Shown one piece after another: positions 124 through 21,485 of a DNA stretch of 22,851 bases. Under the pieces are notes generated by a model. The model worked only from the letters and a program-made list of their open reading frames with translations, was not told the origin of the DNA and did not search any database. Positions within the stretch are counted from its first letter, which is position 1. Every line of letters starts with the position of its first letter. A program made the position numbers and the translations under genes. The DNA lies in the IMG/VR virus record IMGVR_UViG_3300045240_000197, positions 1 to 22,851 of that record. One strand, 5' to 3'. Source of the DNA: a virus.

Positions 124-152
124 ATAATAGGAAATTTCCTATCCATGGTCAA
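124..152 (-). promoter_or_regulatory. Leftward promoter (PL-like) with embedded operator
   Basis: On the minus strand there is a -35 TTGACC (147-152), a 17-bp spacer and a -10 TATTAT (124-129). This matches the sigma-70 consensus at 5/6 and 5/6 positions with ideal spacing. The predicted start, around 117, falls on the ATG of the leftward small gene. A perfect operator palindrome fills the spacer, and a half-site (TAGGAA, 153-158) touches the -35, so bound repressor would block polymerase. Confidence 0.7.
127..142. promoter_or_regulatory. Operator palindrome OL-like, ATAGGAAATTTCCTAT
   Basis: A perfect 16-bp palindrome. Its TAGGA...TCCTA core is the same as that of the sites between the divergent repressor and rightward operon (1061-1118). 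It overlaps the spacer and the -10 of the leftward promoter. It is probably a binding site for the S24 repressor encoded at 336-1046; that assignment is inferred from the shared motif and position. Confidence 0.7.
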
Positions 153-335: not shown

Positions 336-1046
336 CTAAGGCTCGCCGCTGGCGACGATGCGGTGGATGCCTTTGACCAGCTTCATGTCGATCTCGATCG
401 TCTTGGGCGGATTGAGCTGGGCTAGGAACAGCTTGGCCGGCGTCTGGCGGACATATTCCTTGATCAGCGCGCGGGCCGTCGAGCTCGATGGATCGCTGGC
501 CGCGCCGATCTGCACCAGCACGTAGCAGCCTCTGCTCGGCGGCCGGCCGGGATGCATGAAGACGAGCTCGCCGTGACGATAACGCGGCGCCATCGAGTCG
601 CCATAGACATAGACCGCATAGGCGTTGGGAACGCCGATCAGCGATTGCGGCCGCGCGACGTTGTCGACTGTCTCGCCGTTCCATTCGTTCTCGCCGTCGC
701 TGCCTCCGGCGCCGGTTCCCTTCACCGGCACCATCTCCGGCCCGCTGTAGGAGAGCGCGGGGCTCATCGCACGATAGAGCGGCGAACTCTGGATCGTGCG
801 GCCTTGCGGGAACTCGCCTTGATCCGGCGGGCGCAGCATCTGCTCGTCGATGTCGAGAAGACGGGCGAGCTTGCCGCGCTGGATCTCGGGCAGCCATTTG
901 GGACTGCCCTTGGTGAGATATTGCTGAACGTAGGTCTGGTTCATGCCGATCTCGCGCGACAGCCTGGCCATGTCCAGCCCGTGCTCCTTGATCTTCGCCG
1001 CCACCAGCCGGCGCGCCGGATCGTCCTTGAAAGATTCAATGGTCAT
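336..1046 (-). CDS. LexA/CI-like S24-family repressor
   Basis: This DNA-binding repressor likely maintains the silent state. Starting from the ATG at 1046 the protein is 236 residues. An N-terminal helix-turn-helix covers about residues 14-50 (ARLSREIGMNQTYVQQYL), followed by a linker and a C-terminal S24 peptidase fold. In this numbering the nucleophile is Ser151 in GDSM, the general base is Lys196 in ALIKEY, and the candidate self-cleavage bond is Ala113-Gly114 in GTGAGG. The Ala-Ser distance of 38 and Ser-Lys distance of 45 resemble lambda CI, so RecA-stimulated autocleavage is plausible. Starts at 1058 and 1070 are also open. The 1070 start lies inside an operator and 1046 begins nearest the conserved fold, but none has a good Shine-Dalgarno. 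It is transcribed divergently from the regulatory operon at 1151 onward. Confidence 0.9.
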   Translation of the reverse strand: MTIESFKDDPARRLVAAKIKEHGLDMARLSREIGMNQTYVQQYLTKGSPKWLPEIQRGKLARLLDIDEQMLRPPDQGEFPQGRTIQSSPLYRAMSPALSYSGPEMVPVKGTGAGGSDGENEWNGETVDNVARPQSLIGVPNAYAVYVYGDSMAPRYRHGELVFMHPGRPPSRGCYVLVQIGAASDPSSSTARALIKEYVRQTPAKLFLAQLNPPKTIEIDMKLVKGIHRIVASGEP

Positions 1047-1060
1047 GATTCGGAGCATAA

Positions 1061-1118
1061 TAGGGAACATCCTACGAGAAAAGTAGGAACATCCCTTTAC
1101 TTAATAGGAAACGTCCTA
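1061..1118. promoter_or_regulatory. Three-site operator array (OR-like)
   Basis: Three copies of a TAGGA-n-TCCTA type site occupy the divergent intergenic region: TAGGGAACATCCTA (1061-1074), the weaker TAGGAACATCCCTT (1084-1097) and TAGGAAACGTCCTA (1105-1118). Centres are about 23 and 21 bp apart, roughly two helical turns, which suits cooperative binding on one face. Site 1 overlaps the upstream starts of the repressor gene; site 3 fills the spacer of the rightward promoter. The repressor's own promoter is less clear; a TATTAA at 1101-1106 on the minus strand is the best -10 candidate. Confidence 0.75.
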
Positions 1119-1150: not shown

Positions 1151-1462
1151 ATGAGCGCTTTCACCCAGCGCATGCAGGACTGCCTTCACTTCATCGAGAC
1201 CAGCATCGCGGCGAAGGGAATCTCGCCGTCGATGCAGGAGATCTGCGCGGGCGTGGGCCTCAGCCCCAAGTCCAAAGCCTATGCCTCGGCTCTGGTGCGC
1301 TGCCTTGAGGAGCGCGGCGCGCTCAGGCGCGTGCGCATCAAAGACGGCCAGGTCGCGCGGCGGGGAATCGTTCTTCTCGCTCAGCGCTGCCCCAAATGCG
1401 GCGAGGCGCTGCCGCCCGGCGTCGCGGCGCCCGACACCACGCTGTCGCACGAGGCGCCCTGA
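1151..1462 (+). CDS. LexA-type winged-helix DNA-binding protein (Cro-position regulator)
   Basis: A 103-residue protein. Residues about 8-55 follow the pattern of the LexA N-terminal domain: a first helix (QRMQDCLHFIETSI), a GISPSMQEIC segment like the Gly-x-x-Pro-Ser-x-x-Glu-Ile of LexA, then GLSPKSKAYASALVRCLEERGALRR as recognition helix and wing. There is no peptidase domain. The tail has one CPKCG pair (about residues 80-84), possibly half of a zinc site. It is the first gene of the rightward operon, divergent from the repressor, which is the cro/early-regulator position. The ATG has GGAG six bases upstream. It overlaps the next gene by one base (TGATG). It could act as an anti-repressor-type switch, but this is inferred from position only. 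Confidence 0.75.
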   Translation: MSAFTQRMQDCLHFIETSIAAKGISPSMQEICAGVGLSPKSKAYASALVRCLEERGALRRVRIKDGQVARRGIVLLAQRCPKCGEALPPGVAAPDTTLSHEAP

Positions 1463-1827
1463 TGCAGACGGGTTTCACGCTTCAAGTCATCAAGCGCCGC
1501 GCCAGGCAGCCGCAGCCGCCGTTCCGCGAGTCGCTGCTCGGCGTCCTCAAGCACGCGCTCACGCGCGAGACGGCGTTCTTCGCCGTGCCGGAAGGCGCGA
1601 GCGGCGTGGGCGTGATCCTTGTCCATCGCGGGCGCTCGTTCGGGCTGGAGCTCAAGGAGCGGCACAGTTCGCTGAGCGTCGAGGAGCGCGCGGCACAGGT
1701 CAGACTCCGTGACGCCGGCATGCGCGTCGAAGTGGCGCGCGACCTGGACGAGGCGTTGATGCATCTGGCCCAGATGGGCATCCCTCTGCGCCGCGATGAG
1801 ATCTCGCGCCGCCGCAAAGCGGCTTGA
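1462..1827 (+). CDS. VRR-NUC-like protein, apparently degenerate
   Basis: A 121-residue protein with the alpha/beta layout of small VRR-NUC nucleases. A FFAVPEG strand is followed by GVGVILVHRGRSFGLELK, an LSVEER segment and the closing RDAGMRVEVARDLDEAL. The E-x-K of the family is present in LELK. The Asp normally found at the GxPDL position is replaced (GVGVIL), and the Gln usually following LSP is Glu. Catalysis is therefore doubtful, though a structural or regulatory role remains possible. An in-frame ATG exists at 1396, but 1462 gives the natural one-base overlap with the upstream stop and keeps the family's usual length. It is co-transcribed with the regulator upstream and the membrane protein downstream. 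Confidence 0.6.
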   Translation: MQTGFTLQVIKRRARQPQPPFRESLLGVLKHALTRETAFFAVPEGASGVGVILVHRGRSFGLELKERHSSLSVEERAAQVRLRDAGMRVEVARDLDEALMHLAQMGIPLRRDEISRRRKAA

Positions 1828-2016: not shown

Positions 2017-2622
2017 ATGAGCAAGGCAAAATCGATGATCACGCTGCCCGCGATGGAGAAGCATGGCCATGACGGGCGTCCGCCGGTGCTCCAGGCCGTC
2101 GACGGGATCGAAGAGAAGGATTTGAGGGCGCGCACCGTCGTCAAGCGCAACACCAACCACTGCACGCTGTGCCGCCTGCATCATCTGGGGCATCTGCGCG
2201 ACCGGCCGAGCGACGACCTCAAGCTCGCCAACATCCGTCACGCCGCGGGCGAGAAGCTGCAGGACGATCATTCGCTTGCCGGGCTCGCCTCGATCCCCGG
2301 AACGCTGCGCTTCGGTCCGCGCGGCGGAAGTTACGGCCCGGTCGATGTGAGCCAGATCCGCATCGACGCCGCCGGCCGCAAGAGAACGGCGTTGCGCGCG
2401 GTGGGACGCAGCGCGCAGTTCCTGCTCGAGCACATCGTGATCGACGACCTCACCCTGGCGCAGACCGCGGCGATCATGAGCGTCAAGGACAACGCGGTGC
2501 TGCCGGCGCTGCGCGTGGCGCTCGACGCACTCGCGGCACATTACGGTATCGTCTTCGAGACGCGCGGCGCGATCCGCGGCGGCGCCGCCGATCCAATCCA
2601 CCCCTTCCAGCAATTCGATTGA
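2017..2622 (+). CDS. DUF6456-like regulator, candidate late-gene activator or antiterminator
   Basis: A 201-residue protein. From about residue 77 it follows the pattern of the alphaproteobacterial DUF6456 family: AAGEKLQDD-x-x-LAGL, a basic glycine-containing stretch (RFGPRGGSYGP), then a helical C-terminal part ending ALRVALDALAAHYG. A possible metal site lies earlier, with H48, C49, C52, H55, H56 and H59 in NHCTLCRLHHLGHL. DUF6456 domains occur with helix-turn-helix regions, which favours a DNA- or transcription-related role. It is the last gene before the promoter/terminator unit at 2739-2822, which is where Q sits in lambdoid phages. The late-regulator role is inferred from position. Start: ATG one base after the previous stop; an internal ATG at 2035 is a weaker choice. 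Confidence 0.65.
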   Translation: MSKAKSMITLPAMEKHGHDGRPPVLQAVDGIEEKDLRARTVVKRNTNHCTLCRLHHLGHLRDRPSDDLKLANIRHAAGEKLQDDHSLAGLASIPGTLRFGPRGGSYGPVDVSQIRIDAAGRKRTALRAVGRSAQFLLEHIVIDDLTLAQTAAIMSVKDNAVLPALRVALDALAAHYGIVFETRGAIRGGAADPIHPFQQFD

Positions 2623-2705: not shown

Positions 2706-2738
2706 TCGCGAAATTTCTCTCGCGAACGATTTTCGCGA
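2706..2738. repeat. Three spaced TCGCGA motifs upstream of the late promoter
   Basis: TCGCGA occurs at 2706-2711, 2720-2725 and 2733-2738, at 14- and 13-bp steps, in a locally AT-rich block that starts with the palindrome GAAAATTTTC (2696-2705). The last copy touches the -35 at 2739. Placement is typical of activator sites, but the binding protein is unknown and the regular spacing could be chance. Confidence 0.4.
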
Positions 2739-2767
2739 TTGACAGGGGGACCCCTTCGGCGTACTCA
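2739..2767 (+). promoter_or_regulatory. Late (structural operon) promoter
   Basis: TTGACA (2739-2744), a perfect -35, a 17-bp spacer and TACTCA (2762-2767) as -10. The spacer contains AGGGG-GA-CCCCT (2744-2755), a short palindrome between the two boxes. The predicted start is near 2774. It is the only strong promoter seen before the long block of same-strand tail genes, so it probably drives them. Confidence 0.65.
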
Positions 2768-2788
2768 TTTCGTCATGGTGAGTTGATG

Positions 2789-2822
2789 CGCCTCGCGGAC
2801 GAAACGTCCGGCGGGGCGTTTT
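2789..2822 (+). terminator. Leader terminator (attenuator-like) just downstream of the late promoter
   Basis: CGCCTCGCGGACG (2789-2801) folds on CGTCCGGCGGGGCG (2805-2818): 13 pairs including one G-U, one bulged G, and an AAA loop. TTTT directly follows, then CATTT. This is the shape of an intrinsic terminator, and it begins about 15 nt after the predicted transcript start and before any structural gene. Constitutive initiation with termination here unless relieved would match an antitermination switch. The rest of the gap, up to 2914, shows no reading frame that I would support. Confidence 0.6.
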
Positions 2823-2914: not shown

Positions 2915-3094
2915 ATGCCCAAGAACAACGAAGAGTTCGTCGATTTCACCGCCCGCGACGGCGTCACCATCTACACCGCCCGCGGCGTCACCGGTCACAA
3001 GGCCGGCACGACCGTGCGCCTGCCCAAGAGCCATGCCGATGCGCTGTCCCATGTCGCGCATCACGCCGCAGGCCCGGCGAAGCTGACGGACTGA
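2915..3094 (+). CDS. Small unknown protein preceding the tail genes (59 aa)
   Basis: The protein begins MPKNNEEFVDF and contains a probable small beta region (TARDGVTIYTARGVTGHKAGTTVRL) followed by a short helix with three histidines. ATG at 2915 is preferred because GAAAGGA ends about eight bases upstream. An in-frame ATG at 2906 abuts that signal. In Mu a short DUF2635 protein (gp38) occupies a similar place next to the sheath, and size and beta character are compatible. The sequence match is too weak to assign. It is the first gene of the late operon. Confidence 0.55.
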   Translation: MPKNNEEFVDFTARDGVTIYTARGVTGHKAGTTVRLPKSHADALSHVAHHAAGPAKLTD

Positions 3095-3162: not shown

Positions 3163-3972
3163 ATGCTTTGGCGGGCGATGCTGCGCGGCACCGCGCTCGG
3201 GCTTCTCGCGAATGCGGCGACCGCGGCGGGTATCAGCCCGTCCTGGTTCTCCGTCTATTCGCGCGACAGGAAGCGCGGCGACTATGGCGGTGCGCCGGAG
3301 TTCGAGACCACTAACGAATTCCGCGTCGAGATCCGCGCCGAAGCCTCTGCGCCCGACGGCACGCCGTCGGATCAGATCGAAAGCGTGGCGCGCGCACTTG
3401 CGCAGAGCAAGCTCGATGCGCTGTGCGAACTCGCGGAGCAAGCCTTGCTCGGCGGGCAGGGCTTCGACGTCACCATCGCCTGCACTGCCGACAGCGCCAC
3501 CGCCACGCCGGCGAGCCTCACCGGCCTGGCCGTGGGCATGATGCTCAGCGGCCCGGGCATCAGCCCGCGCGATCCGTTCCTCGCGATCGCGGCGATCAAT
3601 ACCGGCGGCACGGTGACGCTGTCGGCGCCCTACCAAGGGTCCACCGGCAGTTATCTCTTCACTGCCGGATCCTTCATCGCCCTGTTCGAGCGCATCGACA
3701 GCGTCGATTCCTATCCGCGTCACCGCGGCATGGAGGGGACGAGCTACATCGCGCGCGAGACCATCCAGATCACCGGCCACGTGCACGAAATCTTCGAGCC
3801 GTCGCGCGGCTCCGACCTCAGCGGCATCAACCTCTACGTCGATGCCGTCAACATCTTCGACCCGAACGGCGACTTCGTCGGCCAGGAACCGTTCGCCGTC
3901 GTGCCCGCGCCGCGTACGGCCGGGCCCGACGGGCGTCCCGACATCGTGGCCGACGTCGATACCAACGCTTAA
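3163..3972 (+). CDS. Tail terminator-like protein with an inserted beta domain
   Basis: A 269-residue protein directly upstream of the sheath. The N-terminal third (SWFSVYSRD, ETTNEFRVEIRAEA, then ALAQSKLDALCELAEQALLG) has the strand-strand-helix look of tail terminator/completion proteins, which cap the sheath and tube. Residues about 103-165 (CTADSATATPASLTGLAVGMMLSG, NTGGTVTLSAPYQG) resemble the small Gly-rich beta motif common in phage tail and fibre proteins and look inserted. The core resumes at about 170 with IDSVDSYPRHRGMEG and ITGHVHEIFEP. Usual terminators are roughly 130-180 residues, so this one is long. The start has GGAGG (3153-3157) five bases upstream. In a headless particle it would close the head-distal end. 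The family call rests on position and fold pattern. Confidence 0.6.
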   Translation: MLWRAMLRGTALGLLANAATAAGISPSWFSVYSRDRKRGDYGGAPEFETTNEFRVEIRAEASAPDGTPSDQIESVARALAQSKLDALCELAEQALLGGQGFDVTIACTADSATATPASLTGLAVGMMLSGPGISPRDPFLAIAAINTGGTVTLSAPYQGSTGSYLFTAGSFIALFERIDSVDSYPRHRGMEGTSYIARETIQITGHVHEIFEPSRGSDLSGINLYVDAVNIFDPNGDFVGQEPFAVVPAPRTAGPDGRPDIVADVDTNA

Positions 3973-3984
3973 AGGAGACCCACC

Positions 3985-5625
3985 ATGGTGGATATCGGTT
4001 TCAACTACGTTCCTTCCAATCAACGCATTCCCGGAATCTATCCCGAAGTCGAAGGCGACATCCCCGGCCAGCCGCCGCAATGGTCGCTTCTGATCGGCCA
4101 GGCGGCCAGCACGGTCACCTCGTTGCCGGGTTCGCCGCTCATGATCAGCTCGGTCGCCGCGGCGGTCAGGCATTTCGGCGCCGCGTCCATGATCGCCTCG
4201 ATGGTCGAGCGCTATATGGGCTCGGATCCGAACGGCACGCTCTGGGTGATGGCATTGCCCGAGCATAGCGGCATGGCCTTCGCCAAGGGCTCGATCACCT
4301 TCGCCGGCACCGCGACGGAAGCCGGCACGATCAACCTCTACATCGGCGGCCGCTTCGTCAGCGTCACCGTCAACCTGGGCGACACGGCGGCGACGATCGC
4401 GACGAATGTCGTCAGCGCGATCACCAACTACTTCGACTCCAACCAGCTGGGCCTCAAGGCCAAGAACCGTCAGTTCCTCGGCGTGAAGATGCCCGTGGGA
4501 GCTGCGGTCGACGGCACCACGGCCGGCAAGGTCGTCCTCACCTGCACCTTCAAGGGCACGGCGGGCAACAAGATCGACGTCCAGCTCAACTACTACGGCA
4601 CCAGCGGCCGCGAAGAGCTGCCGGCCGGCATCACCGCGACGGTCAGCGCGATGGGCGTCGATCAGGCGGGCGCGGGCGATCCCGACACCAGCGGTCTGGA
4701 TGCGATCCTCACCGACACGAAATACGACTTCATCGTCCAGCCCTGGGCGACCAATCCGGATCCGGCCCATCCCGGCAACAGTCTGTCCGTGCAGTCGCTC
4801 ACCGACTTCCAGACGCTCATGGCCGACGACACCGGCCGCTGGTCGCCGCTGCGCAAGGTCTACGGCCACGTCTTCTCGGCGGCGTCCTTCTCGACGAACG
4901 GCAACGACGCGGTGAGCTTCGGCGCCACGCGCAACGACCGGCACATGACCATCGTCGCCTATGAGCAGTCGGCGCCGATGCCGCCCTACGACGTGGCGGC
5001 GGCCTATGCCGGCGCGTTCGCGGCGAGCTCGCGCGTCGATCCGGCGCGGCCGAGCCAAACGCTTCCCGTCGTCGGCATCCTCGCCCCGCACAGGAGCGCA
5101 CGTTTCAGCGCCGCGACGCGTCAGACGCTGCTCGGCGTCGGTCTCGCGCTGATGGACTACGAGCCGGACTACACCTGCCGCATCCTGCGCGCGGTCACGA
5201 CCTACCAGCTCGACGAGAACGGCAGTCCGGACATCTCCTATCGCGACACCGAGACGCTCTACACGCTGATGGCGGTGGTGCGTCAGATGACGGCGGATTG
5301 GGGCGCGGCCTATCCGCGCGCCAAGATCATCGACGACGACGTCGCCTTCGGCCCCGGCAGCAGCTTCGCCGCCGGTCTTCCCGATCAGCCGGTGGTGACG
5401 ACCAAGAGCGGCAAGGCGGTGCTCACCGCGTCCTACTCGCGCATGGCAAACGGCAACAGCCAGGCGATCTGGGTGACGGACACCGACTCGTTCGCGAGCA
5501 ACCTGATCCTGCAGCGCAACGGCCTGGATCCGACGCGTCTCGACGCGTTGCTTCCGATCGTCCTGGCTTCGGGCCTCAGGGTCACGGCGATGAAGGTCGA
5601 TTTCGCGCTGCAGGCTGCCGCCTGA
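3985..5625 (+). CDS. Contractile tail sheath protein (Mu gpL-like)
   Basis: A 546-residue protein beginning MVDIGFNYVPSNQRIPGIYPEV, the Mu gpL-type opening with the RIPG-Y motif that extends into the neighbouring subunit. Middle domains follow (about residues 95-230, with Ig-like strands TFAGTATEAGTINLYIGG). The conserved C-terminal part includes GRWSPLRKVYGHVF, the ATRNDRHMTIVAYE segment and a terminal MKVDFALQ strand that completes the handshake. Mu gpL is about 495 residues, so this is slightly longer. It polymerises around the tube and contracts to drive it through the target envelope. AAGGAG lies upstream of the ATG. Its presence shows that the particle is of the contractile (myovirus/R-type) kind. 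Confidence 0.95.
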   Translation: MVDIGFNYVPSNQRIPGIYPEVEGDIPGQPPQWSLLIGQAASTVTSLPGSPLMISSVAAAVRHFGAASMIASMVERYMGSDPNGTLWVMALPEHSGMAFAKGSITFAGTATEAGTINLYIGGRFVSVTVNLGDTAATIATNVVSAITNYFDSNQLGLKAKNRQFLGVKMPVGAAVDGTTAGKVVLTCTFKGTAGNKIDVQLNYYGTSGREELPAGITATVSAMGVDQAGAGDPDTSGLDAILTDTKYDFIVQPWATNPDPAHPGNSLSVQSLTDFQTLMADDTGRWSPLRKVYGHVFSAASFSTNGNDAVSFGATRNDRHMTIVAYEQSAPMPPYDVAAAYAGAFAASSRVDPARPSQTLPVVGILAPHRSARFSAATRQTLLGVGLALMDYEPDYTCRILRAVTTYQLDENGSPDISYRDTETLYTLMAVVRQMTADWGAAYPRAKIIDDDVAFGPGSSFAAGLPDQPVVTTKSGKAVLTASYSRMANGNSQAIWVTDTDSFASNLILQRNGLDPTRLDALLPIVLASGLRVTAMKVDFALQAAA

Positions 5626-5669
5626 TCGGCGCTCTTCCGCAATAACCAAATCACGCAATGGAGTGAAAC

Positions 5670-6041
5670 ATGGCCGGTCAACGTATTGGCGGTACCCTCT
5701 TTCTGATGATCAACGGCGTCCAATATCCCGCGCGCGGGAGTTGGGAATACACCCCCACGATGAGCGAGCGCACCGGCATCGCGGGGCAGGACGGCGTCCA
5801 TGGCTACACCGAGAAGCCGACGGTGCCGTCGATGAAGGGCGACGTCTCCGATTTCGGCGGCATCTCGATCCAGGCGCTGCAGCAATCGACGGTGTCGGTG
5901 GCGACGCTCTCGCTCGCCAACGGCAAGGTCGTCGTCGGTCACGATGGCTGGGTGAAGGGTGCGATCACCTCGCACACCGAGGACGGCAAATACTCGCTCG
6001 ATCTCGAGTTCACCCGCGTCATCGAGCAGCCGTCGAGCTGA
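5670..6041 (+). CDS. Tail tube protein (Mu gpM-like)
   Basis: A 123-residue protein starting MAGQRIGGTLFLMINGVQYPARG, typical of the Mu-type tail tube family. The following GSWEYTPTM, GVHGYTEKPTVPSMKGDVSDFGG and LANGKVVVG segments fit the beta-barrel that stacks as hexameric rings. It would form the inner tube whose length is set by the tape measure. GGAGTG lies upstream of the ATG. The sheath-tube adjacency is the standard contractile-tail arrangement. Confidence 0.92.
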   Translation: MAGQRIGGTLFLMINGVQYPARGSWEYTPTMSERTGIAGQDGVHGYTEKPTVPSMKGDVSDFGGISIQALQQSTVSVATLSLANGKVVVGHDGWVKGAITSHTEDGKYSLDLEFTRVIEQPSS

Positions 6042-6086
6042 CCTTCACCCCTCCGTTAAGCCAGCGTCCCACTTAAGGAGACTCTC

Positions 6087-6428
6087 ATGGATACCATCAC
6101 GCTCACCCTTTCCGAGCCCATCCAGGCGCACGGCAAGGAGATCACCACGCTCGAGTTCCGCAGGCCCACCGGCGCCACCATCCGCCGCTGCGGCGCGCCG
6201 ACCAAGATGCAGCGCGTCGAAGGCGGCGAGCCGGTGGTGCTGCTCGACATGGACTCGTACGCCCGCTACGTCGCCGAGTGCGCGCAGATCCCCGCGCCCT
6301 CGGTCGATCAGCTCGCGGCCGAGGACTTCTTCGCCTGCGTCGGCGTGGTCGACGGTTTTTTCGGACAGTCGAAGACCCGCGAAGAGTCTGGGACGGACAC
6401 CAGCTCCTCGAGCAATACCACAGCCTAG
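6087..6428 (+). CDS. Tail assembly chaperone (Mu gp41-like), zero-frame product
   Basis: A 113-residue protein, MDTITLTLSEPIQAHGKEITTLEFRRPTG, the opening of the Mu gp41/E-type tail assembly chaperones that coat the tape measure during tube assembly. The conserved core runs to about residue 92 (AAEDFFACVGVVDGFF). The remaining Ser/Thr-rich tail (SSSSNTTA) looks non-conserved, as expected for a product that ends shortly after a frameshift site. TAAGGAG lies upstream. It lies between tube and tape measure, the universal position for this pair. Confidence 0.88.
   Translation: MDTITLTLSEPIQAHGKEITTLEFRRPTGATIRRCGAPTKMQRVEGGEPVVLLDMDSYARYVAECAQIPAPSVDQLAAEDFFACVGVVDGFFGQSKTREESGTDTSSSSNTTA
6356..6362 (+). 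promoter_or_regulatory. Programmed -1 ribosomal frameshift site, T TTT TTC
   Basis: In the zero frame the codons read GGT TTT TTC GGA, so T-TTT-TTC fits X-XXY-YYZ. A -1 slip keeps TTT in both decoding sites and opens the frame that runs to 6538. No clear downstream pseudoknot or strong stem was found by eye. Frameshifting at this gene position is well known for long-tailed phages, including Mu-type gp41/gp41'. Confidence 0.85.
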
Positions 6429-6538
6429 CGCTCGCCTATCACGACCTCTCGGTCTTCGACTGGTCGTTCGACGAGGTCGAACGCTCCGTTCCCATCCTCA
6501 ATCGCATCACCGAACGCTGGAACAAGGAGGAGACGTAA
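6362..6538 (+). CDS. -1 frame extension of the tail assembly chaperone (gp41' part)
   Basis: After the slip, residues 1-92 of the zero-frame protein join 58 residues that begin RTVEDPRRVWDG, giving a protein of about 150 residues. The extension has a coherent helical pattern (HSLALAYHDLSVFDWSFDEVE, PILNRITERW), typical of the GT-type partner that contacts the tape measure. It ends at 6538, one base before the tape measure ATG. The frame has no good start codon with a ribosome site of its own, which supports expression only by frameshift. Confidence 0.82.
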   Translation, partial: RTVEDPRRVWDGHQLLEQYHSLALAYHDLSVFDWSFDEVERSVPILNRITERWNKEET

Positions 6539-6539
6539 C

Positions 6540-8678
6540 ATGGCTTTTGCCGCCGCTGTTCCTTTTCCGGCGCTCAACGGCGCTCTCGAGCGCTTCGCCA
6601 AGCTCACCACCGGCGTCACCGGCTCGACCTGGCGCTTCGGCCGCCTGTTGGACAACACCAATGACCGTCTGGGCGATCTCGCGCGATCGTCGGACGCGAC
6701 TTGCAACGCGATCGACAAGCTGGGGCAGGCTTGTTCCGCGCTGCTCTCGCAGTTCCAGCGCGGCGGCAAAGCGCTCGCGCAGGGCCCCACTTCGACGTCG
6801 CGCCATGTGCCGCCGACGGCGACGGGCGGACAAGCGTCCACACCGCCTATTCCTCGTACCAGACCGGGCAGCGGTGCCCCGCATCCGGCGGCGCCGAGCA
6901 AGTCCTGGCTCGACCATGTGTTCGACGTGATCGGCGACATACATGAGCGTGCGGACAAGGCATCGGTTCCGTTCTACGCGGGCAAGGCCGGTTTCGACGT
7001 CGTGAAGGGCATCGGCGAGTTTTTCTCCAAGCGCTCGCATAAGAAGCTTACGGGATTTCGAAAGTTCGCGCATGAAGGCACGAAGCTCCTCGGCAGCACT
7101 CTCGATATCGGCGCTTATACCGCCGACGCCGTGTCCGATTCGATGGATGCGTTCCAGAAGCTGCGCGAGGGGAAATTGTCGGAGGCCGCGGCCGATGCCG
7201 GCAAGGTGTTCGACGATATCGGCGACATCCGCACCGCGTGGAAGGGGCCCACGCGCTTCCTGCGCAGCAATTTTTTCGCCAAGGAAGGCGAGCACGCGCT
7301 GACGCACAATATGGGCTGGGGCAGTAGAGCTTTCCAAGCGGCGCGAAACGCCCCTCCCGCCTTGAGAAGCGGGCTGAGCCGGCTGCTTTCCTTCGGCGGC
7401 CGCGCCGCTGCCACGGAAGGCCTCGAAGCCGGAGGCACGCTGCTCGAAGCAGGCGCGGCCGGCGGCGAAGCGCTGGCGGGCGGCGAAGCCTTGGCCGGCG
7501 GTGCCGGGCTGCTGGAAGCCGGCGGCGGAATGGCCGCGCTGGCCGGCCTCGAAATGACACCCGTGGGCTGGGGCCTCACCGCCGCGGCCGTCGCGGGGTT
7601 TGCGGGTTACGAAGCCTACAAGCATCGCAAGCAGATCGCGCAATTCGCCTCGAACATGTGGCAGAAGAGCGCGCCGCTGCGCAACGCCGCCTACAACGCG
7701 CTGCCGTTCATTCCCGGCGGCAACCTCATCAAGGGCGCGATCGACGCCGCACCTGCGCTCGCGAAGATGGCGCAACCGGCGGTGAACAAGGTGAAAGCCG
7801 GTGCCAACTGGGTCGGCGATTTCGCCGTCGGTCTCGGCGACATGGCGTGGCAGGGGTTGAAGAAAGGCGCGCAGGGCGTCAAGGCGCTCGCGAGCTCGGC
7901 CTGGTCCAACGTCACGCAGAAGGCGCACGCCGCCTGGAACACCGTCACCACGAAAGCGGGCGCCGCATGGCATGCGGTGACGACCCGCGCCCAGTCGACC
8001 TGGAAAAGCGTCACCACCGTCGCCGCCAATGTCGGCCACAAGGTTGCCGACGCGGTCAAGAGCAAATGGTCGCAAGCCACCAGCTTCTTTGGCGGTCTGT
8101 GGCACAGCGCGACGAACGTGGCCTCGCAAGTCTGGGCGAAAGCAAAGCCCTTTGTCGACAAGGCCGGCCACGCGGTGAAGACCATGCTCGACAAGCACGG
8201 CGTCACGGCGCTGGCGCATCGCGTCGTCAACACCGTGGCGGCGGTGAAGAACAATGTGGTCGCCACGGCGGTCCAGCTTGGTCACGCGCTCGACAAGGTC
8301 GCGCAGCACGGCCATGAGATCCGTCAGGGCTGGGCCAAGGACGAAGCGGCGCAGAAGCGTGCGGCAAACACGGGCGCGCAGGCCTTGAAGAATGCGCAGG
8401 CGCACGCCCGCGTCCACGCGACGACGCTCAGGCACGCGCATCACGCCGTGCATCGCCACCTGCATCCGCATCATCATCGCCATCTGGGCGTGCACGCGCC
8501 GGCCGATATGCAGGGGCTCAGGGGGCGGCCGGGCGGCTCGTCTCAGGGCGGCGGCGGGTCCGGCTATGCCGACATCCGCGTGCATTTCGAAAATGCGCCG
8601 CAGGGTACGCGCGTCAGTACGCGCACCGGCGGCTGCTGCCCGCCGCATGTCGAGACCGGCGTCGCTTTCGGGCACTAA
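6540..8678 (+). CDS. Tape measure protein
   Basis: A 712-residue, largely helical, Ala/Lys-rich protein following the chaperone pair, with AAGGAGGAG upstream. Visible regions: a helical start; a Pro/Gly/Ser-rich linker (about 80-120); a Gly/Ala/Glu stretch and a hydrophobic segment near residues 340-360 (GWGLTAAAVAGFAGY), as often seen in tape measures that enter the inner membrane; eight 11-residue units with Trp at 455-532; a His-rich stretch (about 622-652, including HPHHHRH); and a Gly-rich end with CCPPH. At about 0.15 nm per residue it would set a tail near 105 nm, within the range of R-type particles. I see no lytic transglycosylase or peptidase motif, so no muralytic domain is assigned. 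Confidence 0.88.
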   Translation: MAFAAAVPFPALNGALERFAKLTTGVTGSTWRFGRLLDNTNDRLGDLARSSDATCNAIDKLGQACSALLSQFQRGGKALAQGPTSTSRHVPPTATGGQASTPPIPRTRPGSGAPHPAAPSKSWLDHVFDVIGDIHERADKASVPFYAGKAGFDVVKGIGEFFSKRSHKKLTGFRKFAHEGTKLLGSTLDIGAYTADAVSDSMDAFQKLREGKLSEAAADAGKVFDDIGDIRTAWKGPTRFLRSNFFAKEGEHALTHNMGWGSRAFQAARNAPPALRSGLSRLLSFGGRAAATEGLEAGGTLLEAGAAGGEALAGGEALAGGAGLLEAGGGMAALAGLEMTPVGWGLTAAAVAGFAGYEAYKHRKQIAQFASNMWQKSAPLRNAAYNALPFIPGGNLIKGAIDAAPALAKMAQPAVNKVKAGANWVGDFAVGLGDMAWQGLKKGAQGVKALASSAWSNVTQKAHAAWNTVTTKAGAAWHAVTTRAQSTWKSVTTVAANVGHKVADAVKSKWSQATSFFGGLWHSATNVASQVWAKAKPFVDKAGHAVKTMLDKHGVTALAHRVVNTVAAVKNNVVATAVQLGHALDKVAQHGHEIRQGWAKDEAAQKRAANTGAQALKNAQAHARVHATTLRHAHHAVHRHLHPHHHRHLGVHAPADMQGLRGRPGGSSQGGGGSGYADIRVHFENAPQGTRVSTRTGGCCPPHVETGVAFGH
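7899..8162 (+). repeat. Eight 33-bp (hendecad) repeats in the tape measure gene
   Basis: Trp codons sit at 7902, 7935, 7968, 8001, 8067, 8100 and 8133, each a multiple of 33 bp apart; only the unit at 8034 lacks Trp (Gly). Typical units read AWSNVTQKAHA, AWNTVTTKAGA and AWHAVTTRAQS. An 11-residue period equals three helical turns, which suits a straight or right-handed coiled coil. Confidence 0.85.
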
Positions 8679-8693
8679 CCAACGGGACATCCG

Positions 8694-9896
8694 ATGGCGT
8701 GGAATGATCATCTGCTGCCGGCGTCGTTTCGCGGCGTCGCCTTCCACTACGACGACACCAGGCGCAGCGGCGGCCGCAGGCTGGTCGAGCACGAGTTCCC
8801 GCTGCGCGACGATCCTTACGTGGAGGATCTCGGCCGCAAGAAGCGCGAGCACAAGATCACCGGCTATGTGATCGGCGACGACTACATGAGCCAGCGCGCA
8901 GCCCTCGAGGTCGCGCTCGATGGCGCCGAGGCTGCGACGCTGGTGCATCCCTATCGCGGTCCGCTGCTCGTCAGCATCCGCAGCTGGACCAGCCAGGAGG
9001 TGCGCGACGAAGGCCGCATGGCGCGCTTCGACATCGACTGCGTCGAGAGCGGCAGCCAGCCTTCGCCGCTCGCGATCCTGGCGACGGCGCAATCGAGCCT
9101 TTCCTCAGGCAACGACACGACGACCCAGCTTCAGGTCTCGTTCCTCGTGAACTGGCTCATCGGCGCCGGCAACACGGTCGCCGCTGCCGTGCAGCTCCTC
9201 GACGATCTGTCCGACGCGCTCGGCATGCTGCTGAGTTGGCCCGATATCGACACCTCCGGCATCGCGCCCTTGATCGCGGGGCTTTCCGGCGATCCGACCG
9301 ACGTCGCCGGGATCGCTTCTGCCGTCACTGGCTTCTTCTCCGGCTATGCGAGCGCGGTGCTCGCCGCGCAGGAACCGTTCGACGAGGCGCTATCCTCGCG
9401 TGGACCGCTTCCCGTGATCGACCCGAGCTGCGGTCTGGCCCAGATGGCGAGTTGGGGCGGGAGCGAGCCGCCGCCGCCCGATGCGCAGAGCCTCGCCAAC
9501 CAGGAGGCGCTGATCGCGCTGGTGGGAGGTGCGGCCGCGGTGGCGCTGTCGCAGATCTATGCGAGCACGGCCTTCCATACCCAGGACGACGCCGACACGG
9601 CGCGCGATCAGCTGAGCACGATGATCGACGGGCTCGCCACCACGTCGGCGGATTCGGGTGACGACGACGCGTTCACCTCCTGGCAGAAGCTCTATCAATC
9701 TTCGACCGACGATCTGACCAACCGCGCCAAGCAGGCGCCGTCGACCGTCACCTTCACGCTCGGCAGCGCGCTGCCCGCGCTGGTGCTGGCGCAGCGTCTC
9801 TATCGCGATCCGTCGCGCGCCGGCGAACTCGTCGCGCGCAACGACGCGCCGCATCCGCTCTTCGTTCCGCCCGTCGTCGAGGCCTTGAACTCATGA
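8694..9896 (+). CDS. Mu gp43/gpN-like protein (DNA circularisation N-terminal family)
   Basis: A 400-residue protein whose first about 115 residues (LLPASFRGVAFHYDDTRR, VEHEFPLRDDPYVEDLG, HKITGYVIGDDY, LVHPYRGPLLVSI) match the DNA_circ_N family. The family name is historical. In Mu-like tails this protein joins the tube to the baseplate hub. The rest is Ala-rich and helical with a closing LVALRNDAPHPLF-like segment (actual text ELVARNDAPHPLF), typical for the family. Its place between tape measure and gp44 fits the Mu order. The stop overlaps the next start (ATGA). Confidence 0.9.
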   Translation: MAWNDHLLPASFRGVAFHYDDTRRSGGRRLVEHEFPLRDDPYVEDLGRKKREHKITGYVIGDDYMSQRAALEVALDGAEAATLVHPYRGPLLVSIRSWTSQEVRDEGRMARFDIDCVESGSQPSPLAILATAQSSLSSGNDTTTQLQVSFLVNWLIGAGNTVAAAVQLLDDLSDALGMLLSWPDIDTSGIAPLIAGLSGDPTDVAGIASAVTGFFSGYASAVLAAQEPFDEALSSRGPLPVIDPSCGLAQMASWGGSEPPPPDAQSLANQEALIALVGGAAAVALSQIYASTAFHTQDDADTARDQLSTMIDGLATTSADSGDDDAFTSWQKLYQSSTDDLTNRAKQAPSTVTFTLGSALPALVLAQRLYRDPSRAGELVARNDAPHPLFVPPVVEALNS

Positions 9897-10990
9897 GCGA
9901 CGAGATCGCGCTCGCCATCGACGACGAGGAATATCTGGGCTGGAGCGAGATCAAGGTCTCGCGCGCGCTCAAGGAGGCGGCGGCGACCTTCGACATCGCG
10001 GTGAGCGAGCGCTGGGCCGGCATCGTCGCGCCGCCCGCGCCGTGGCAGATCCTGCCCTTCAAGCAGGCGACCGTGACCATCGGCGGCGAGCCGGTGCTCA
10101 CCGGCTGGGTGGAGAGCTACGAGCCGTCCTACGGCGCCAACGAGCACAGCGTGCGCATCGGCGGGCGTTCCAAGACCTGCGATCTCGTCGATTGCATGCC
10201 CGATGTCGGCACCGGCGAGTTCAGCGGCTTCAAGCTGGACGCGATCGCGCGCGCGCTGTGCGCCCCCTACGGCATCGGCGTCGAGGTGCAATGCGACATC
10301 GGCGATCCGCTCCCCGACGCGACACTGGAGAAGACCGAGACCGCGTTCTCCTTCCTCGAGAAGCTGGCGCGGCTGCGCTCGGTGATGCTGACCGACGACG
10401 CCGACGGCAATCTCGTGCTCACCCAGGCCGGCAAGCAGGGCAGCGGCGGCGCGCTGATCGAAGGCAACAACATCCTGAACGCATCCGCCAAGCTCACCGG
10501 CAATGAGCGCTTCCAGCAATATGCGGTGTTGAGCCAGACGCCGCTCGCCTATGACGGCGCAGATTCGCAGACCCAGGTCGTCGGCACCGCGACCGATCCC
10601 GGCTGCACGCGGGGCCGCCGCCATGCCGAGATGGCGGAGAACCCCTCCGACCAGACGCGCGCCACCGCCCGTGCCAAATGGCGCGCGCTGCACAATTTCG
10701 GCATCTCGACCGAGGCGACGATCACGGTGCCCGGCTGGCGCCAGCCGGGTCCCTCGGGCGCGCCGAACGGCGAGCTCTGGAACACCAATCTGCTCGTGCC
10801 GGTGAAATGCCCCTTCCTCGCCATCCAGCGGCAATTGCTGGTGAGCAAGGTCGAGTTCGAGTTCGACAACAGCGGCGGACGCCGCACCACCTTGACGCTC
10901 AGTCCCCAGGAAGCCTTCGCGCCGGAAGGCGACAGCGGCAGCGGCGGCTCCTCCGGCAAAAGCAACGGCATCTGGAATCAAGGACCTTAG
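9893..10990 (+). CDS. Baseplate hub protein (Mu gp44/gpP-like)
   Basis: A 365-residue protein with the gp27-like hub pattern: N-terminal strands (DEEYLGWSEIKVSRALKEAAATFDIAVSE), KQATVTIGGEPVLTGWVESY, then HSVRIGGRSKTCDLVDC, a signature stretch of Mu gp44 and phage late control D type proteins. It forms the trimeric hub above the spike and accepts the first tube ring. It starts within the previous stop codon (ATGA), which suggests translational coupling. The C-terminal Gly/Ser tail (about 345-360) is low complexity. Confidence 0.92.
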   Translation: MSDEIALAIDDEEYLGWSEIKVSRALKEAAATFDIAVSERWAGIVAPPAPWQILPFKQATVTIGGEPVLTGWVESYEPSYGANEHSVRIGGRSKTCDLVDCMPDVGTGEFSGFKLDAIARALCAPYGIGVEVQCDIGDPLPDATLEKTETAFSFLEKLARLRSVMLTDDADGNLVLTQAGKQGSGGALIEGNNILNASAKLTGNERFQQYAVLSQTPLAYDGADSQTQVVGTATDPGCTRGRRHAEMAENPSDQTRATARAKWRALHNFGISTEATITVPGWRQPGPSGAPNGELWNTNLLVPVKCPFLAIQRQLLVSKVEFEFDNSGGRRTTLTLSPQEAFAPEGDSGSGGSSGKSNGIWNQGP

Positions 10991-10992
10991 AC

Positions 10993-11568
10993 ATGCGCGC
11001 AGTCCTAGACCGCATGGCCGCCCGCGTGCGCACCATGGTGACGCGCGGCCGCGTCACCAGCACTACGCTCAATCCCAAGCGGCCGCTGGTCCAGCTCTCC
11101 GGCCTCGCCGGCGAGGTCAAGACCAAGATCGAGCTCTTCGTTCCGATGGGCATGAGCGTCTATCCGACGGGCAACGAGGACGTGCTGCTGCTGCAGATCG
11201 ACGGCTCGCGCTCGCATCTCGTGGCGATGTTCGCCGACAATCCGGCGCTGCGCATCCAAGACCTGCAGCCGAACGAGTTCGGCCACCGCGACGCCAACGG
11301 CCAGCAGATCGTCTTCCGCCAGGACAAGCTCGAGATCACCTCGCCCTTGAAGATGGTGGTGAACATCACCGGCGACGTCGACCTCACCGTCGGCGGCAAG
11401 GTCGTGGGCAGCGCGCAGGAGTGGGACCTGACCGGCAACGTCAAGGTCACGGGCGACATCAGCGCCACGGGCCAGGTCAGCGACGGCGTGCGCAGCATGC
11501 AGGGCGACCGCAACATCTACAACGGCCATCACCACGGCTCGAGCTCCACACCGGATCATCTGCAATGA
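10993..11568 (+). CDS. Baseplate spike protein (Mu gp45/gpV-like)
   Basis: A 191-residue protein. An OB-like N-terminal part (RGRVTSTTLNPKRPLVQLSGLAGEV, VFVPMG-type strand) is followed by a repetitive beta section (KLEITSPLKMVVNITGDVDLTVGGKVVG, GNVKVTGDISATGQ) that predicts a trimeric beta-helix needle. It ends in NGHHHGSS (H179-H181), the His-x-His metal site at the tip of Mu and P2 spikes. The spike pierces the target outer membrane when the sheath contracts. ATG at 10993 with AAGGA nine bases upstream was chosen. Overlaps the next gene by ATGA. Confidence 0.92.
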   Translation: MRAVLDRMAARVRTMVTRGRVTSTTLNPKRPLVQLSGLAGEVKTKIELFVPMGMSVYPTGNEDVLLLQIDGSRSHLVAMFADNPALRIQDLQPNEFGHRDANGQQIVFRQDKLEITSPLKMVVNITGDVDLTVGGKVVGSAQEWDLTGNVKVTGDISATGQVSDGVRSMQGDRNIYNGHHHGSSSTPDHLQ

Positions 11569-12182
11569 GCGACATCGCTTCCCTTATCGTGCAGGACAAC
11601 GACACCGGCGCGATGCGCATCGACTGGCTGATGGACGGCCCCGATCTCATCGGCGACAACGGGCTGGCGACCGCGGTCACGATCTCGCTGTTCACCGACC
11701 GCCTGGCAGATGCCGACGACATCATCCCGGGCACGGCCCCGACCAACGCCGCCGGCCCCGCCGACCGCCGCGGCTGGTGGGGCGACATGCCGGCCGATCC
11801 TTCCGATCTTCAGGGCGCATCGGCGCTGATCGGCTCGCGGCTGTGGCTGCGCACGGGCTGGCCGCCCAACGACGAGACTGCGCGCCGCATCGAGCTCGAC
11901 GTGCGCGAGGCGCTGCAATGGCTGATCGATTGCGGCGTCGCGGAGCAGGTCGAGGTGACCACGGGCTGGCTCATGCCCGACCTGCTCGGCCTCAATCTTT
12001 CGATCGCGCAACGCAGCGCCAACAGCGCGCCGCAGATGTACGAATACGAATATGCCTGGAGCCCGACCATCGCCGCCGCTGGCGACACCGTGCCGGTCGC
12101 GCCCGTGCCTTTCGGCATCCTCACCGAATCCGGCGGCCAGTTCGTCAACGAGACCGGCACCGGCGCGCTGTTCGAGGAATAG
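11565..12182 (+). CDS. Baseplate protein Mu gp46-like (gpW/gp25-type wedge)
   Basis: A 205-residue protein. The first about 150 residues show the GP46 family pattern: DWLMDGPDLIGDNGLATAVTISLFTDRLA, RRGWWGDMP, GSRLWLR, and LDVREALQWLIDCGVAEQVEV. This protein anchors the first sheath ring on the baseplate wedge. A C-terminal extension of about 45 residues (from YAWSPTIAAAG) is beyond the usual length. It starts within the stop of the spike gene. The normal next gene in Mu (gp47) is displaced by about 7.4 kb of fibre genes. Confidence 0.92.
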   Translation: MSDIASLIVQDNDTGAMRIDWLMDGPDLIGDNGLATAVTISLFTDRLADADDIIPGTAPTNAAGPADRRGWWGDMPADPSDLQGASALIGSRLWLRTGWPPNDETARRIELDVREALQWLIDCGVAEQVEVTTGWLMPDLLGLNLSIAQRSANSAPQMYEYEYAWSPTIAAAGDTVPVAPVPFGILTESGGQFVNETGTGALFEE

Positions 12183-12185
12183 ACG

Positions 12186-14006
12186 ATGGGCGGAAGCAAG
12201 ATCAGCGATATGGACGCGGCATCGCTGCCGCTCACCGGCGAGATGGTGCCCTGCGTACAGGACGGCGCCAATGTCCAGGTTCCCGCCGCGGCGCTGGGCG
12301 TTCCGGTCGCGGGCCTCACGCCGCCTGCGACGCCCACGGCCTACCAGAGCTGGATCGACGAGAGCACCGCGCCGCCGACGCTTCGTCTCTATCTCGGCGG
12401 AAATTGGACCCCGCTCTACACCATCGACACCGACGGCACGTTGGGTCTGGCGCAGCCGCTGACGCTTCCGGCCGAGCCCGCGAGCGGCGACCAGGCGGCG
12501 ACGAAGAGCTACGACCCGAGCGTGGTGTTCAAGGGCGTCATCGATTGCTCGGCGAACCCCAACTATCCGGCCGCGCGTCTCGGCGATTTCCATGTCGTGA
12601 GCGTTGCAGGCAAGATCGGCGGCGCATCGGGCGTCACGGTACGGATAGGCGACACGCTGCTCTGCCGCATCGACAACTCGCCGTCCGGCAGCCAGGCGAG
12701 CGTCGGCGCGAATTGGACGATCGGGCAGGGGAGTGTGGCGAATGCGGCCTACGGGCCGGCCTCCGCGACGCTGGGCGATTTCGCGCTGTTCGACGGCACG
12801 AGCGGAAAGGCGATCAAGGACGGGCCGCTCTCGTTCGACACCGATCCCGCGATGGCGGCGAACAGCGACGCGAACGTGCCGTCGCAGAAGGCGGTCCGGA
12901 GCGCGCTCGGCGGCGTCGTCCTCGGCGACGCGGCGCTCGCGCAAGGGCAGGGCTGGATCTTCGACGGTGCGACGGACGCGTTTCGCGCGCGTGACGGCGA
13001 GGGCGAGAACCTGCTCGTCAACTCCGCCTTCGACATCTGGCAGGAGAACACGAGCTACACGCTCAACACCATCGGCAACAAGCTGTTCATCGCCGATTTC
13101 TGGAAGCTTGGCTCCAACGGAACGGGAACGACGAAGACGATCACCCGCGTGGCCGGTCTTTCGGGCGCGCGATACGCGCTGAAGGCTCAACGCGTTCCCG
13201 GCTCCACCGACATCACGCATGTGCGGCTGGCGCAGCAATTCGGCCAGTCGGAGTCGCTGTTCCTTGCCGGCAAGACCGTCGTGGTGTCGTTCGACTTCGT
13301 CGCCGGCGCGGACTTCAGCGGCCAGGGTCCGGCAGCCACGATCTACTACGGCACCGGCATCGACGAGGATTTCGTGATGACGGGCCTTGGCCCGCACTTC
13401 CCGACCGGTGCAGGCAATACCGGTCTGGGCACGCCGCTTTCTGTCGCGCCGGCGGGACAGGTGGCGCGGCTCATAAGTCCGCCGCTCGCGATCCCTACGG
13501 GTGTCACCGAAATCGCCTGCGACATTCATGCCGGACCCTATCTGACAGGCGCGGCGGGCGCGGACGACAGCTTCACCATCGGCAACATCAAGCTCGAGAT
13601 CGGCAATGCCGCGACACCCTATGTGCGTCCGGATCCGGGTGATGAGCTGCGGCGCTGCCAGCGGCGTTATTGGAAGACGTTCTTGAGCGCTGCCGTGCCG
13701 GGCGACGGTCCCGGTCTCGCCAGCGGCGAGCATCGCGCCGCGGCCACGAAGGCAGGTGCCGTTGCGCAGACGCTGGGAATGGTCCGGTTTCCGGCGATGC
13801 GCGCTGCGCCGAGCGTGAGCCTGTTCAATCCCGCGCCGGGAGGCGCGGCGGGGCAGGCGCGCGACCTCACCGCCGCCGCGGACTGCTCCGCGACCGCGGC
13901 GCAGAACCTCGCCGAGGGCAGTTTCGAGATCGTGGCCACCGGTGCCGCATCGACCGCGAGAGGAAACACGCTCGGCGTCCACGTCGTCGCCGACGCGCGG
14001 CTTTGA
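12186..14006 (+). CDS. Tail fibre protein 1
   Basis: A 606-residue protein. Layout: docking domain (1-95; LPLTGEMVPCVQDG, WIDESTAPPTLRLY, LYTIDTDGTLGLA); one 135-residue shaft module around residues 115-245 (CSANPNYPA, VVSVAGKIGGASG, PSQKAVRSA); a beta-sandwich at about 275-490 opening NLLVNSAFDIWQENT with ADFWK and AQQFGQSESLFLAGKTVVVSFDF, the pattern of carbohydrate-binding tip domains; a CQRRYWK motif (C491); and a C-terminal tip ending GVHVVADARL. It probably recognises a cell-surface polysaccharide. No Tfa-type chaperone gene follows. The docking domain is shared with the three following genes, so all four should compete for the same baseplate site. GAGG precedes the ATG, and only three bases separate it from gp46. 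Confidence 0.85.
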   Translation: MGGSKISDMDAASLPLTGEMVPCVQDGANVQVPAAALGVPVAGLTPPATPTAYQSWIDESTAPPTLRLYLGGNWTPLYTIDTDGTLGLAQPLTLPAEPASGDQAATKSYDPSVVFKGVIDCSANPNYPAARLGDFHVVSVAGKIGGASGVTVRIGDTLLCRIDNSPSGSQASVGANWTIGQGSVANAAYGPASATLGDFALFDGTSGKAIKDGPLSFDTDPAMAANSDANVPSQKAVRSALGGVVLGDAALAQGQGWIFDGATDAFRARDGEGENLLVNSAFDIWQENTSYTLNTIGNKLFIADFWKLGSNGTGTTKTITRVAGLSGARYALKAQRVPGSTDITHVRLAQQFGQSESLFLAGKTVVVSFDFVAGADFSGQGPAATIYYGTGIDEDFVMTGLGPHFPTGAGNTGLGTPLSVAPAGQVARLISPPLAIPTGVTEIACDIHAGPYLTGAAGADDSFTIGNIKLEIGNAATPYVRPDPGDELRRCQRRYWKTFLSAAVPGDGPGLASGEHRAAATKAGAVAQTLGMVRFPAMRAAPSVSLFNPAPGGAAGQARDLTAAADCSATAAQNLAEGSFEIVATGAASTARGNTLGVHVVADARL

Positions 14007-14023
14007 GCTTCAGGGAATAGATC

Positions 14024-15868: not shown

Positions 15869-15879
15869 TTGAGGACGCG

Positions 15880-16575: not shown

Positions 16576-16597
16576 CTTTTCTTCGCAAGGTATCCCG

Positions 16598-19525: not shown

Positions 19526-19556
19526 TTTTCAGCATCCATCTCTCACAGGTGATCCC

Positions 19557-21122: not shown

Positions 21123-21485
21123 ATGAGCATTCTCAAATGGCTGCTTTCGCGCAGCTTCGTGCAATCCTTCGCCACCAAGGAAGTGCGCCATCTCGCGACC
21201 GCCGCCGCCGGCGCGATCGCATCATGGCTCGTCGCCCATCAGGCGAGCCAGAGCGATGCGGCGAACATCGCGCAAGCGCTGAGCGCGCTCATCGCCGGCG
21301 CCGCGGGCTATGGCCTCAGCCTGCTGAACGCCGCGAGCAACGAGGCGCGCGTACAGGCCGCTGCCGCCACCGGGCAGGTGGTCTCGGCGCCGCAGGCGCG
21401 CGCGATCCTGGCGCAGAGCGATGCGGCCGCGCCCACGGCGAAGAGCGCGCTCATCGCCGATCTCGAAGCGGGTGGCCCGAAGTGA
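21123..21485 (+). CDS. Holin candidate (Pam3_gp28-like)
   Basis: A 120-residue protein with TAGGAGG upstream of the ATG. A basic start is followed by two hydrophobic segments (about residues 23-40, HLATAAAGAIASWLVAHQ, and 48-67, ALSALIAGAAGYGLSLL) with a short polar turn. The arrangement resembles the Pam3_gp28 family of putative phage holins. The Ala-rich tail (ARVQAAAATGQ to the end) is probably cytoplasmic and helical. It leads an overlapping trio with the lipoprotein and the coiled-coil protein. The holin role is inferred from topology and position. Confidence 0.65.
   Translation: MSILKWLLSRSFVQSFATKEVRHLATAAAGAIASWLVAHQASQSDAANIAQALSALIAGAAGYGLSLLNAASNEARVQAAAATGQVVSAPQARAILAQSDAAAPTAKSALIADLEAGGPK

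Follow-up and report, generated by a model that had tools for sequence, protein, structure and literature searches.

A GafZ-like gene, a palindromic promoter, and a terminator-like hairpin form a probable antitermination switch in a tailocin-like gene cluster

The stretch of DNA analyzed here, called the window, is a linear 22.9-kb record (22,851 bases) from a virus collection. It carries a CI-like repressor gene, a divergent early operon, and a long series of contractile tail genes followed by a putative lysis cassette, with a short control region between the early and the tail genes (Table 1). In addition to the three operator-like repeats next to the repressor gene, a fourth lies at 128-141 (repeat form TAGGnnnnnnCCTA). 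A left-facing promoter-like site (124-152, minus strand) overlaps this fourth repeat and could drive a 38-amino-acid membrane peptide (118-2, minus strand). The small gene at 2915-3094 occupies the position of the DUF2635 gene that is annotated before the sheath gene in SfV-like phages.

Table 1. Genes and control elements of the window, with the basis for each assignment.
Feature	Positions	Strand	Basis
S24/LexA-type repressor gene (CI-like)	336-1070	-	Pfam Peptidase_S24, E 3.7e-7
Three operator-like repeats, TAGGGAACATCCTA, TAGGAACATCCCTT, TAGGAAACGTCCTA	1061-1118	.	Between divergent repressor and early operon
Early gene, LexA-type DNA-binding domain	1151-1462	+	Pfam LexA_DNA_bind, E 4.6e-8
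Early ORF	1462-1827	+	Open frame; conserved in G001; no Pfam match (scanned from 1396)
Small early ORF, predicted membrane segment	1824-2015	+	Sequence; no Pfam match
GafZ-like (DUF6456) protein, proposed antiterminator	2017-2622	+	Last early-operon gene; Pfam PF20057, hhalign
Conserved CGATTTTCGCG	2728-2738	+	Adjoins -35; identical in L006
-35 element TTGACA	2739-2744	+	Unique TTGACA of window; identical in L006
Palindrome AGGGG-GA-CCCCT, proposed GafZ-like loading site	2744-2755	.	In -35/-10 spacer
Weak -10 TACTCA	2762-2767	+	L006 counterpart TAGTGT
Predicted transcript start and conserved initial transcribed region CATGGTGAGTTGAT	2774-2787	+	L006 identical bar one base
Intrinsic-terminator-like hairpin and T-tract	2788-2822	+	Fold energy; uniqueness in window; pairing kept in L006
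Small first tail-operon gene	2915-3094	+	Matching ORFs in L006, L003
Contractile tail genes	3163-20612	+	PHROGs
Sheath	3985-5625	+	PHROGs
Tube	5670-6041	+	PHROGs
Tape measure	6540-8678	+	PHROGs
Hubs	8694-10990	+	PHROGs
Fibres	12186-19525	+	PHROGs
Wedge	19557-20612	+	PHROGs
Putative lysis cassette (holin-like, spanin-like ORFs)	21123-22116	+	Translations read by eye; no family match

The gene set of an R-type tailocin is present in the window, with sheath, tube, tape measure, baseplate, and fibre genes, and none of the genes scanned, in either the window or a collinear copy of the cluster, was a head, terminase, or integrase gene. That copy is chromosomal: it was found in G001 (JAJPHG010000014.1), an alphaproteobacterial genome from a metagenome, where mutL, a gene for phosphoglucose isomerase, and dsbD, all housekeeping genes, flank it on one side. 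Its operator-like repeats occupy the same places as those of the window. On this gene content and chromosomal setting, the cluster resembles an R-type tailocin or the remnant of a headless prophage. An initial annotation of the window had placed everything that the particle needs downstream of the late promoter; the structural genes do lie there, and the particle itself looks like a headless contractile tail. Matches of the sheath protein among GenBank phages were all below 60% identity. Related parts are found among the three consecutive fibre-like genes, and the G001 cluster has a different number of such genes, including a 2222-amino-acid version; the fibres have likely diversified by duplication. 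At the place of the tape-measure gene, G001 carries an 833-amino-acid ORF (L029, 4132-6633, minus strand) that is weakly similar to a Pfam metalloprotease-toxin domain (24.0 bits, below the cut-off of 27.4). A short dispersed repeat at 196-242 of the window (GTCATGGCCCGCGACTGCGGGCCACCC...) occurs in many copies around and inside the G001 cluster, one site being between its GafZ-like gene and its late promoter.

The initial annotation had described a perfect TTGACA, a 17-bp spacer containing a palindrome, a TACTCA, and, about 15 nt past the predicted start, a 13-pair hairpin with TTTT, and each of these elements was found where it had been placed. The TTGACA is the sole copy on both strands of the window, in which shuffled sequences lead one to expect 4.8. 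It is separated by 17 nt from a -10 element that matches TATAAT at only 2 of 6 positions. The palindrome takes in the final A of the -35 element, and the pattern TTGACAGGGGGNCCCC, with up to two mismatches allowed, occurs once in the window and in none of 100 shuffles. The conserved CGATTTTCGCG that adjoins the -35 is a possible accessory site, and three imperfect TTTCTCGCGAA-like repeats are found directly 5' of it, within 2695-2738.

The hairpin at 2788-2819 has the sequence GCGCCTCGCGGACG-AAA-CGTCC(G)GCGGGGCGT and is predicted to fold into 14 pairs with one bulge, or 13 pairs without the outer G-U, at -24.1 kcal/mol (z -4.4). It is followed by a T-tract at 2819-2822 (TTTTCATTT) and begins about 15 nt from the predicted start near 2774. 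On both strands of the window it is the sole hairpin with at least 11 pairs and a T-tract; shuffled sequences gave 0.23 such hairpins per strand, and none with at least 13 pairs was seen in 30 shuffles. Both the promoter and the hairpin were missed by a generic scan, whose criteria call for a -10 closer to consensus and probably for a stem without a bulge. The same scan found a second 14-pair stem, without a good T-tract, at 2641-2672.

The promoter and the hairpin are conserved as a single block. Positions 2728-2830 are 88% identical to the chromosomal relative L006, while the next 98 alignment columns are only 37% identical, and the stem at 2641-2672 falls within a poorly aligned part 5' of the block. 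The intergenic length differs between the window and the relative because the latter carries inserted repeats. In L006 the pairing of the hairpin is kept, one G-U having become A-U and the triloop a GAAA tetraloop, and the palindrome retains GGGG-N2-CCCC in an unchanged position. The bases at the predicted beginning of the transcript, CATGGTGAGT(T/A)GATG, are strongly conserved, and so is CATGGT near +1 to +6. The collections searched contained only one independent close relative of this block.

The gene at 2017-2622 ends 117 bp upstream of the -35 element, and its product matches Pfam DUF6456 (PF20057) with 31.2 bits against a cut-off of 26.3. The regulator of the relative, 74% identical (L002/L006), scores 39.9 bits, and an hhalign comparison of a profile of nine GTA-type DUF6456 proteins with the window protein and its relative gave a probability of 96.4 (E 1.4e-9, 136 columns). 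Caulobacter was the sole match when 14 named control genomes were searched for DUF6456. Relatives of the regulator were found only in G001 among 96 order-level and 385 class-level genomes, and a protein search of GenBank phages returned no close relative. As to the sigma-like helix-turn-helix expected of a GafZ-type protein, the C terminus (L002) has a weak match to sigma factors (E 9.3e-4, far under the curated cut-off). An AlphaFold2 model of the regulator, built from two sequences, was unusable (pLDDT 36) and was discarded. A chromosomal GafZ-like gene that lacks the phage layout is conserved in genomes of the G453 group (L105-L117); several of these copies have a stop codon within the match, and the gene is possibly a decaying or repurposed paralogue.

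DUF6456 proteins include GafA, a regulator of gene transfer agents (GTAs) (PMC9638019, PMC9765227). GafZ is homologous to the C-terminal part of GafA, which in Caulobacter is split into GafY and GafZ (PMC9632790). Caulobacter GafZ is a demonstrated antiterminator that travels with RNA polymerase, NusA, NusE, and NusG; it requires a near-perfect palindrome between the -35 and -10 elements, and polymerase with GafZ passes both natural and foreign terminators (PMC11150451). Given the DUF6456 match and the palindrome in the spacer, the window thus has the GafZ protein family and a DNA site where one is expected. The early ORFs of the window gave no DnaA-like Pfam match that would point to a GafY-like partner (DnaA domain IV-like); such a partner may be encoded elsewhere. 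The initial annotation had seen here a candidate antitermination switch with the layout of the lambdoid pR'-tR' region, where Q acts; the antitermination layout is supported by the upstream DUF6456 gene, the conserved block, and the recurrence described below, whereas homology of the regulator to lambda-type Q found no support, with no Q-family match in PHROGs, Pfam, or NCBIfam. Pfam and NCBIfam likewise gave no match to an AlpA-type homologue.

The arrangement of a GafZ-like gene, a palindromic promoter, and a hairpin is also seen ahead of late genes in other phages of alphaproteobacteria. When viral contigs were scanned for TTGACAGGGGNNCCCC, 57 loci were obtained, at four of which (L045, L046, L047, and L049, all of the GGGGG-N-CCCC type) a GafZ-like gene lies directly upstream; the remaining 53 showed neither a hairpin nor a GafZ-like gene. 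Neither feature was found at any of 46 loci with TTGACAGGGG followed by a base other than G, and the shorter palindrome alone is therefore uninformative. L046 is the relative already known. The other three, retrieved by TTGACAGGGGGNCCCC, have the GafZ-like gene upstream and a hairpin downstream, and their palindromes have the same axis as that of the window. The L047 protein matches DUF6456 (27.4 bits), with the hairpin 62 nt past the -35 and a portal gene downstream. At L045 (3705) and L049 (934), the GafZ-like gene ends in a TGA that falls inside the TTGACA of the next promoter. These two proteins are linked to DUF6456 by alignment and by phrog_21451 (E 9e-5 for L045 and 1.7e-15 for L049) and not by Pfam; phrog_21451, a family with no functional annotation, also matches Caulobacter and, weakly, L002 (0.017). 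Downstream of L049 are a minor tail protein gene, a terminase small subunit gene, and a portal gene, and downstream of L045 are replication genes rather than late genes. The hairpins of L045, L046, and L047 were found by the same script, and that of L049, with a weak T-tract, by eye.

Two further loci were retrieved by protein similarity alone and not by a DNA pattern. L126 has TTGACA, a perfect 12-bp palindrome (AAGCGCGCGCTT), and a hairpin with T6, followed by a terminase small subunit gene; L124 has TTGCTA, AAGGT-AA-ACCTT, and a hairpin with T5, followed by a gene for a head-tail adaptor. In Bradyrhizobium phage ppBeUSDA76-2, a GafZ-like gene, ACCTG-TTAG-CAGGT, and an 11-pair hairpin with TTTT precede the terminase gene, with no clear -35. 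The palindrome sequences thus differ between loci, and the position of the axis is nearly constant. All seven full-layout sites have palindrome arms of at least 5 bases (5 to 6 bases, with the axis 11.5 to 12.5 bases from the first T of the -35), compared with 4.5% of 374 background TTGAC sites, of which 2.1% have arms of at least 4 bases and an axis at 11.5; four of the seven were chosen or came to attention through the palindrome itself, which leaves L126, L124, and the relative as the only sites without bias in this respect.

A fresh out-of-sample scan with TTGACBGGGGGNCCCC returned 24 loci, and at one of these, L159, a GafZ-like gene ends 36 nt upstream (E 5e-15). It is the sole independent match to the profile, the E-values for L045, L047, and L049 being circular as these are members of it; L159 has the palindrome and the GafZ-like gene and no hairpin. 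Directly 5' of its GafZ-like gene is an ORF with a LexA-type DNA-binding domain (9768-10040, reverse complement), as in the window, which suggests that the two may form a conserved early pair. The layout does not extend to every DUF6456-type locus: at L020, L119, and L131 there is a promoter without a T-tract hairpin, and L021-L026, L123, L129, and L130 show no such layout. A post hoc Fisher test comparing the presence of hairpins between loci that have a GafZ-like gene and loci that lack one gave 1.4e-4, a value that serves as a guide only, the loci being non-independent. Conservation of the promoter-hairpin pair, which the initial annotation had named as a check, was seen in the close relative, and the pair recurs in unrelated phages.

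The family of the regulator gene and the DNA elements were observed directly, as were the conservation and recurrence of both. From this we consider it likely that the late genes of a tailocin-like contractile-tail cluster are controlled at 2739-2822, by GafZ-type antitermination. The steps that we infer, from repressor cleavage through binding, loading, termination, and read-through, would run as follows. RNA polymerase would start near 2774 and, in the uninduced state, mostly stop at 2822, leaving an RNA of about 48 nt. Inactivation of the S24 repressor, presumably by DNA damage, would allow transcription of the early operon from about 1120, and its last gene would supply the GafZ-like protein. 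This protein would bind the palindrome in the promoter and load onto RNA polymerase, and the loaded polymerase would then pass the hairpin into the tail and lysis genes. The perfect -35 would spare the need for GafY, because the Caulobacter GTA promoter, when given a consensus -35, became independent of an activator (PMC11150451).

The main rival, and in our estimation an unlikely one, is pure activation by the regulator. The 2017-2622 protein would then be a transcription activator at the weak -10, either an alternative sigma-like factor or a recruiter, and the hairpin would be a leaky leader or the end of the early operon. The poor -10 and the faint sigma-factor likeness of the regulator's C terminus fit such a role, as do the proposal that GafA is a sigma-like factor acting via omega (PMC9638019) and the roughly 4-fold drop in PgtaT activity on deletion of gafZ even without terGTA (PMC11150451). 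However, the -35 is perfect here and not degenerate as in the Caulobacter GTA promoter, the hairpin is conserved as well as the promoter and recurs with it in unrelated loci, and a terminator 15 nt past the start must be passed either way. It is far less probable that the spacer palindrome is an operator through which the S24 repressor directly represses the late promoter, the hairpin being incidental. AGGnnnnnnCCT loosely fits the operator core, but a matrix made from seven early operators of two clusters, which gives true sites 14.7 to 24.7 bits, scores the late palindrome at -2.5 in the window (rank 55) and -12.6 in the relative (rank 1694), despite repressors that are 86% identical between the clusters. 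The same G5/C4-5 palindrome also occupies the same place in other contigs, and an S24 operator in the spacer was rejected on the matrix score.

We give equally little credence to an RNA attenuator, in which the 48-nt leader would sense something, or act through an alternative fold or a leader peptide, with no protein loaded at the promoter. The strong conservation of the initial transcribed region would suit it, and ATG GTG AGT TGA could form a 3-codon leader; this mini-ORF, however, is broken in L006 (AGT AGA), and the leader 5' of the hairpin is only about 15 nt. A search of Rfam gave no match to a known RNA family. An attenuator would, moreover, leave unexplained the conserved palindrome upstream of the start and its recurrence with GafZ-like genes. 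Least probable of all is a chance promoter before the ordinary terminator of the early operon. Terminators between operons are indeed ordinary, the -10 is poor, and a long stem without a good T-tract occurs nearby at 2641-2672; yet the promoter and hairpin are each unique in the window and conserved as one block, and that other stem lies in the poorly aligned part before it.

GafZ-type antitermination, if it operates here, would be new in its use by a tailocin-like cluster, in a terminator placed directly after the start, and in the absence of a detected GafY. The recurring layouts are a sign that GafZ-like switches with their own palindromes may be widespread in alphaproteobacterial phages. 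A broader proposal, to which we lean only slightly, is that in many temperate phages and tailocins of alphaproteobacteria the part of "Q" is played by GafZ-like proteins, each encoded just 5' of a late promoter with its own palindrome (axis about 11.5 bases from the start of the -35) and a nearby terminator, and that the GTA regulators GafA and GafYZ are a domesticated form of this phage late switch. Were the phage forms the source, the origin of the GTA regulators would be explained. To our knowledge, late-gene switching in alphaproteobacterial phages and tailocins is largely unexplored, and the literature searched contained no case of antitermination control of an alphaproteobacterial tailocin. 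With one gene, one palindrome, one hairpin, and a strong -35, the system would be easier to work with than the GTA of Caulobacter, and the recurring pairs of GafZ-like gene and palindrome offer matched sets for specificity tests.

Several known systems resemble parts of this arrangement. Rhizoviticin, an F-type tailocin of Allorhizobium vitis, is likewise encoded by an alphaproteobacterial headless tail cluster with a LexA-like CI repressor, but its tail is noncontractile, whereas the present cluster has a sheath gene; the word antitermination is absent from the paper describing it (PMC10811719). The window shares with the lambdoid Q and pR'-tR' region the position of the regulator gene at the end of the early operon and just before the late promoter, a site in the spacer, an early terminator, and structural genes downstream, and differs in the family of its regulator, as noted above. 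AlpA of Pseudomonas aeruginosa (PMC7969949, PMC9371919) also has a binding element between the -35 and -10 and an early intrinsic terminator, and controls a DNA-damage-induced program. Its terminator tB begins 54 nt from the transcription start, farther than in the window, no sequence relation between AlpA and the window regulator was detected, and GGGACGN5GGTA, the AlpA motif, is only partly matched in the window and has no match in L006.

The closest parallel in protein family is GafZ (CCNA_01112) at the gtaT promoter of the Caulobacter crescentus GTA (PMC11150451, PMC9632790). There, GafY and IHF are needed; among the early ORFs of the window, no GafY-like partner was found. The -35 is degenerate in Caulobacter and perfect in the window; three 150-bp repeats after the first gene take the place of the single hairpin about 15 nt past the start; the regulator is encoded elsewhere on the chromosome and not directly before its promoter; and the palindrome has a different sequence. 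The window, moreover, encodes a contractile tail without detected head genes, under an S24 repressor. Common to both are a regulator of the same DUF6456 family, a palindrome between the -35 and -10, a terminator downstream (predicted in the present case), and an operon for a phage-derived particle.
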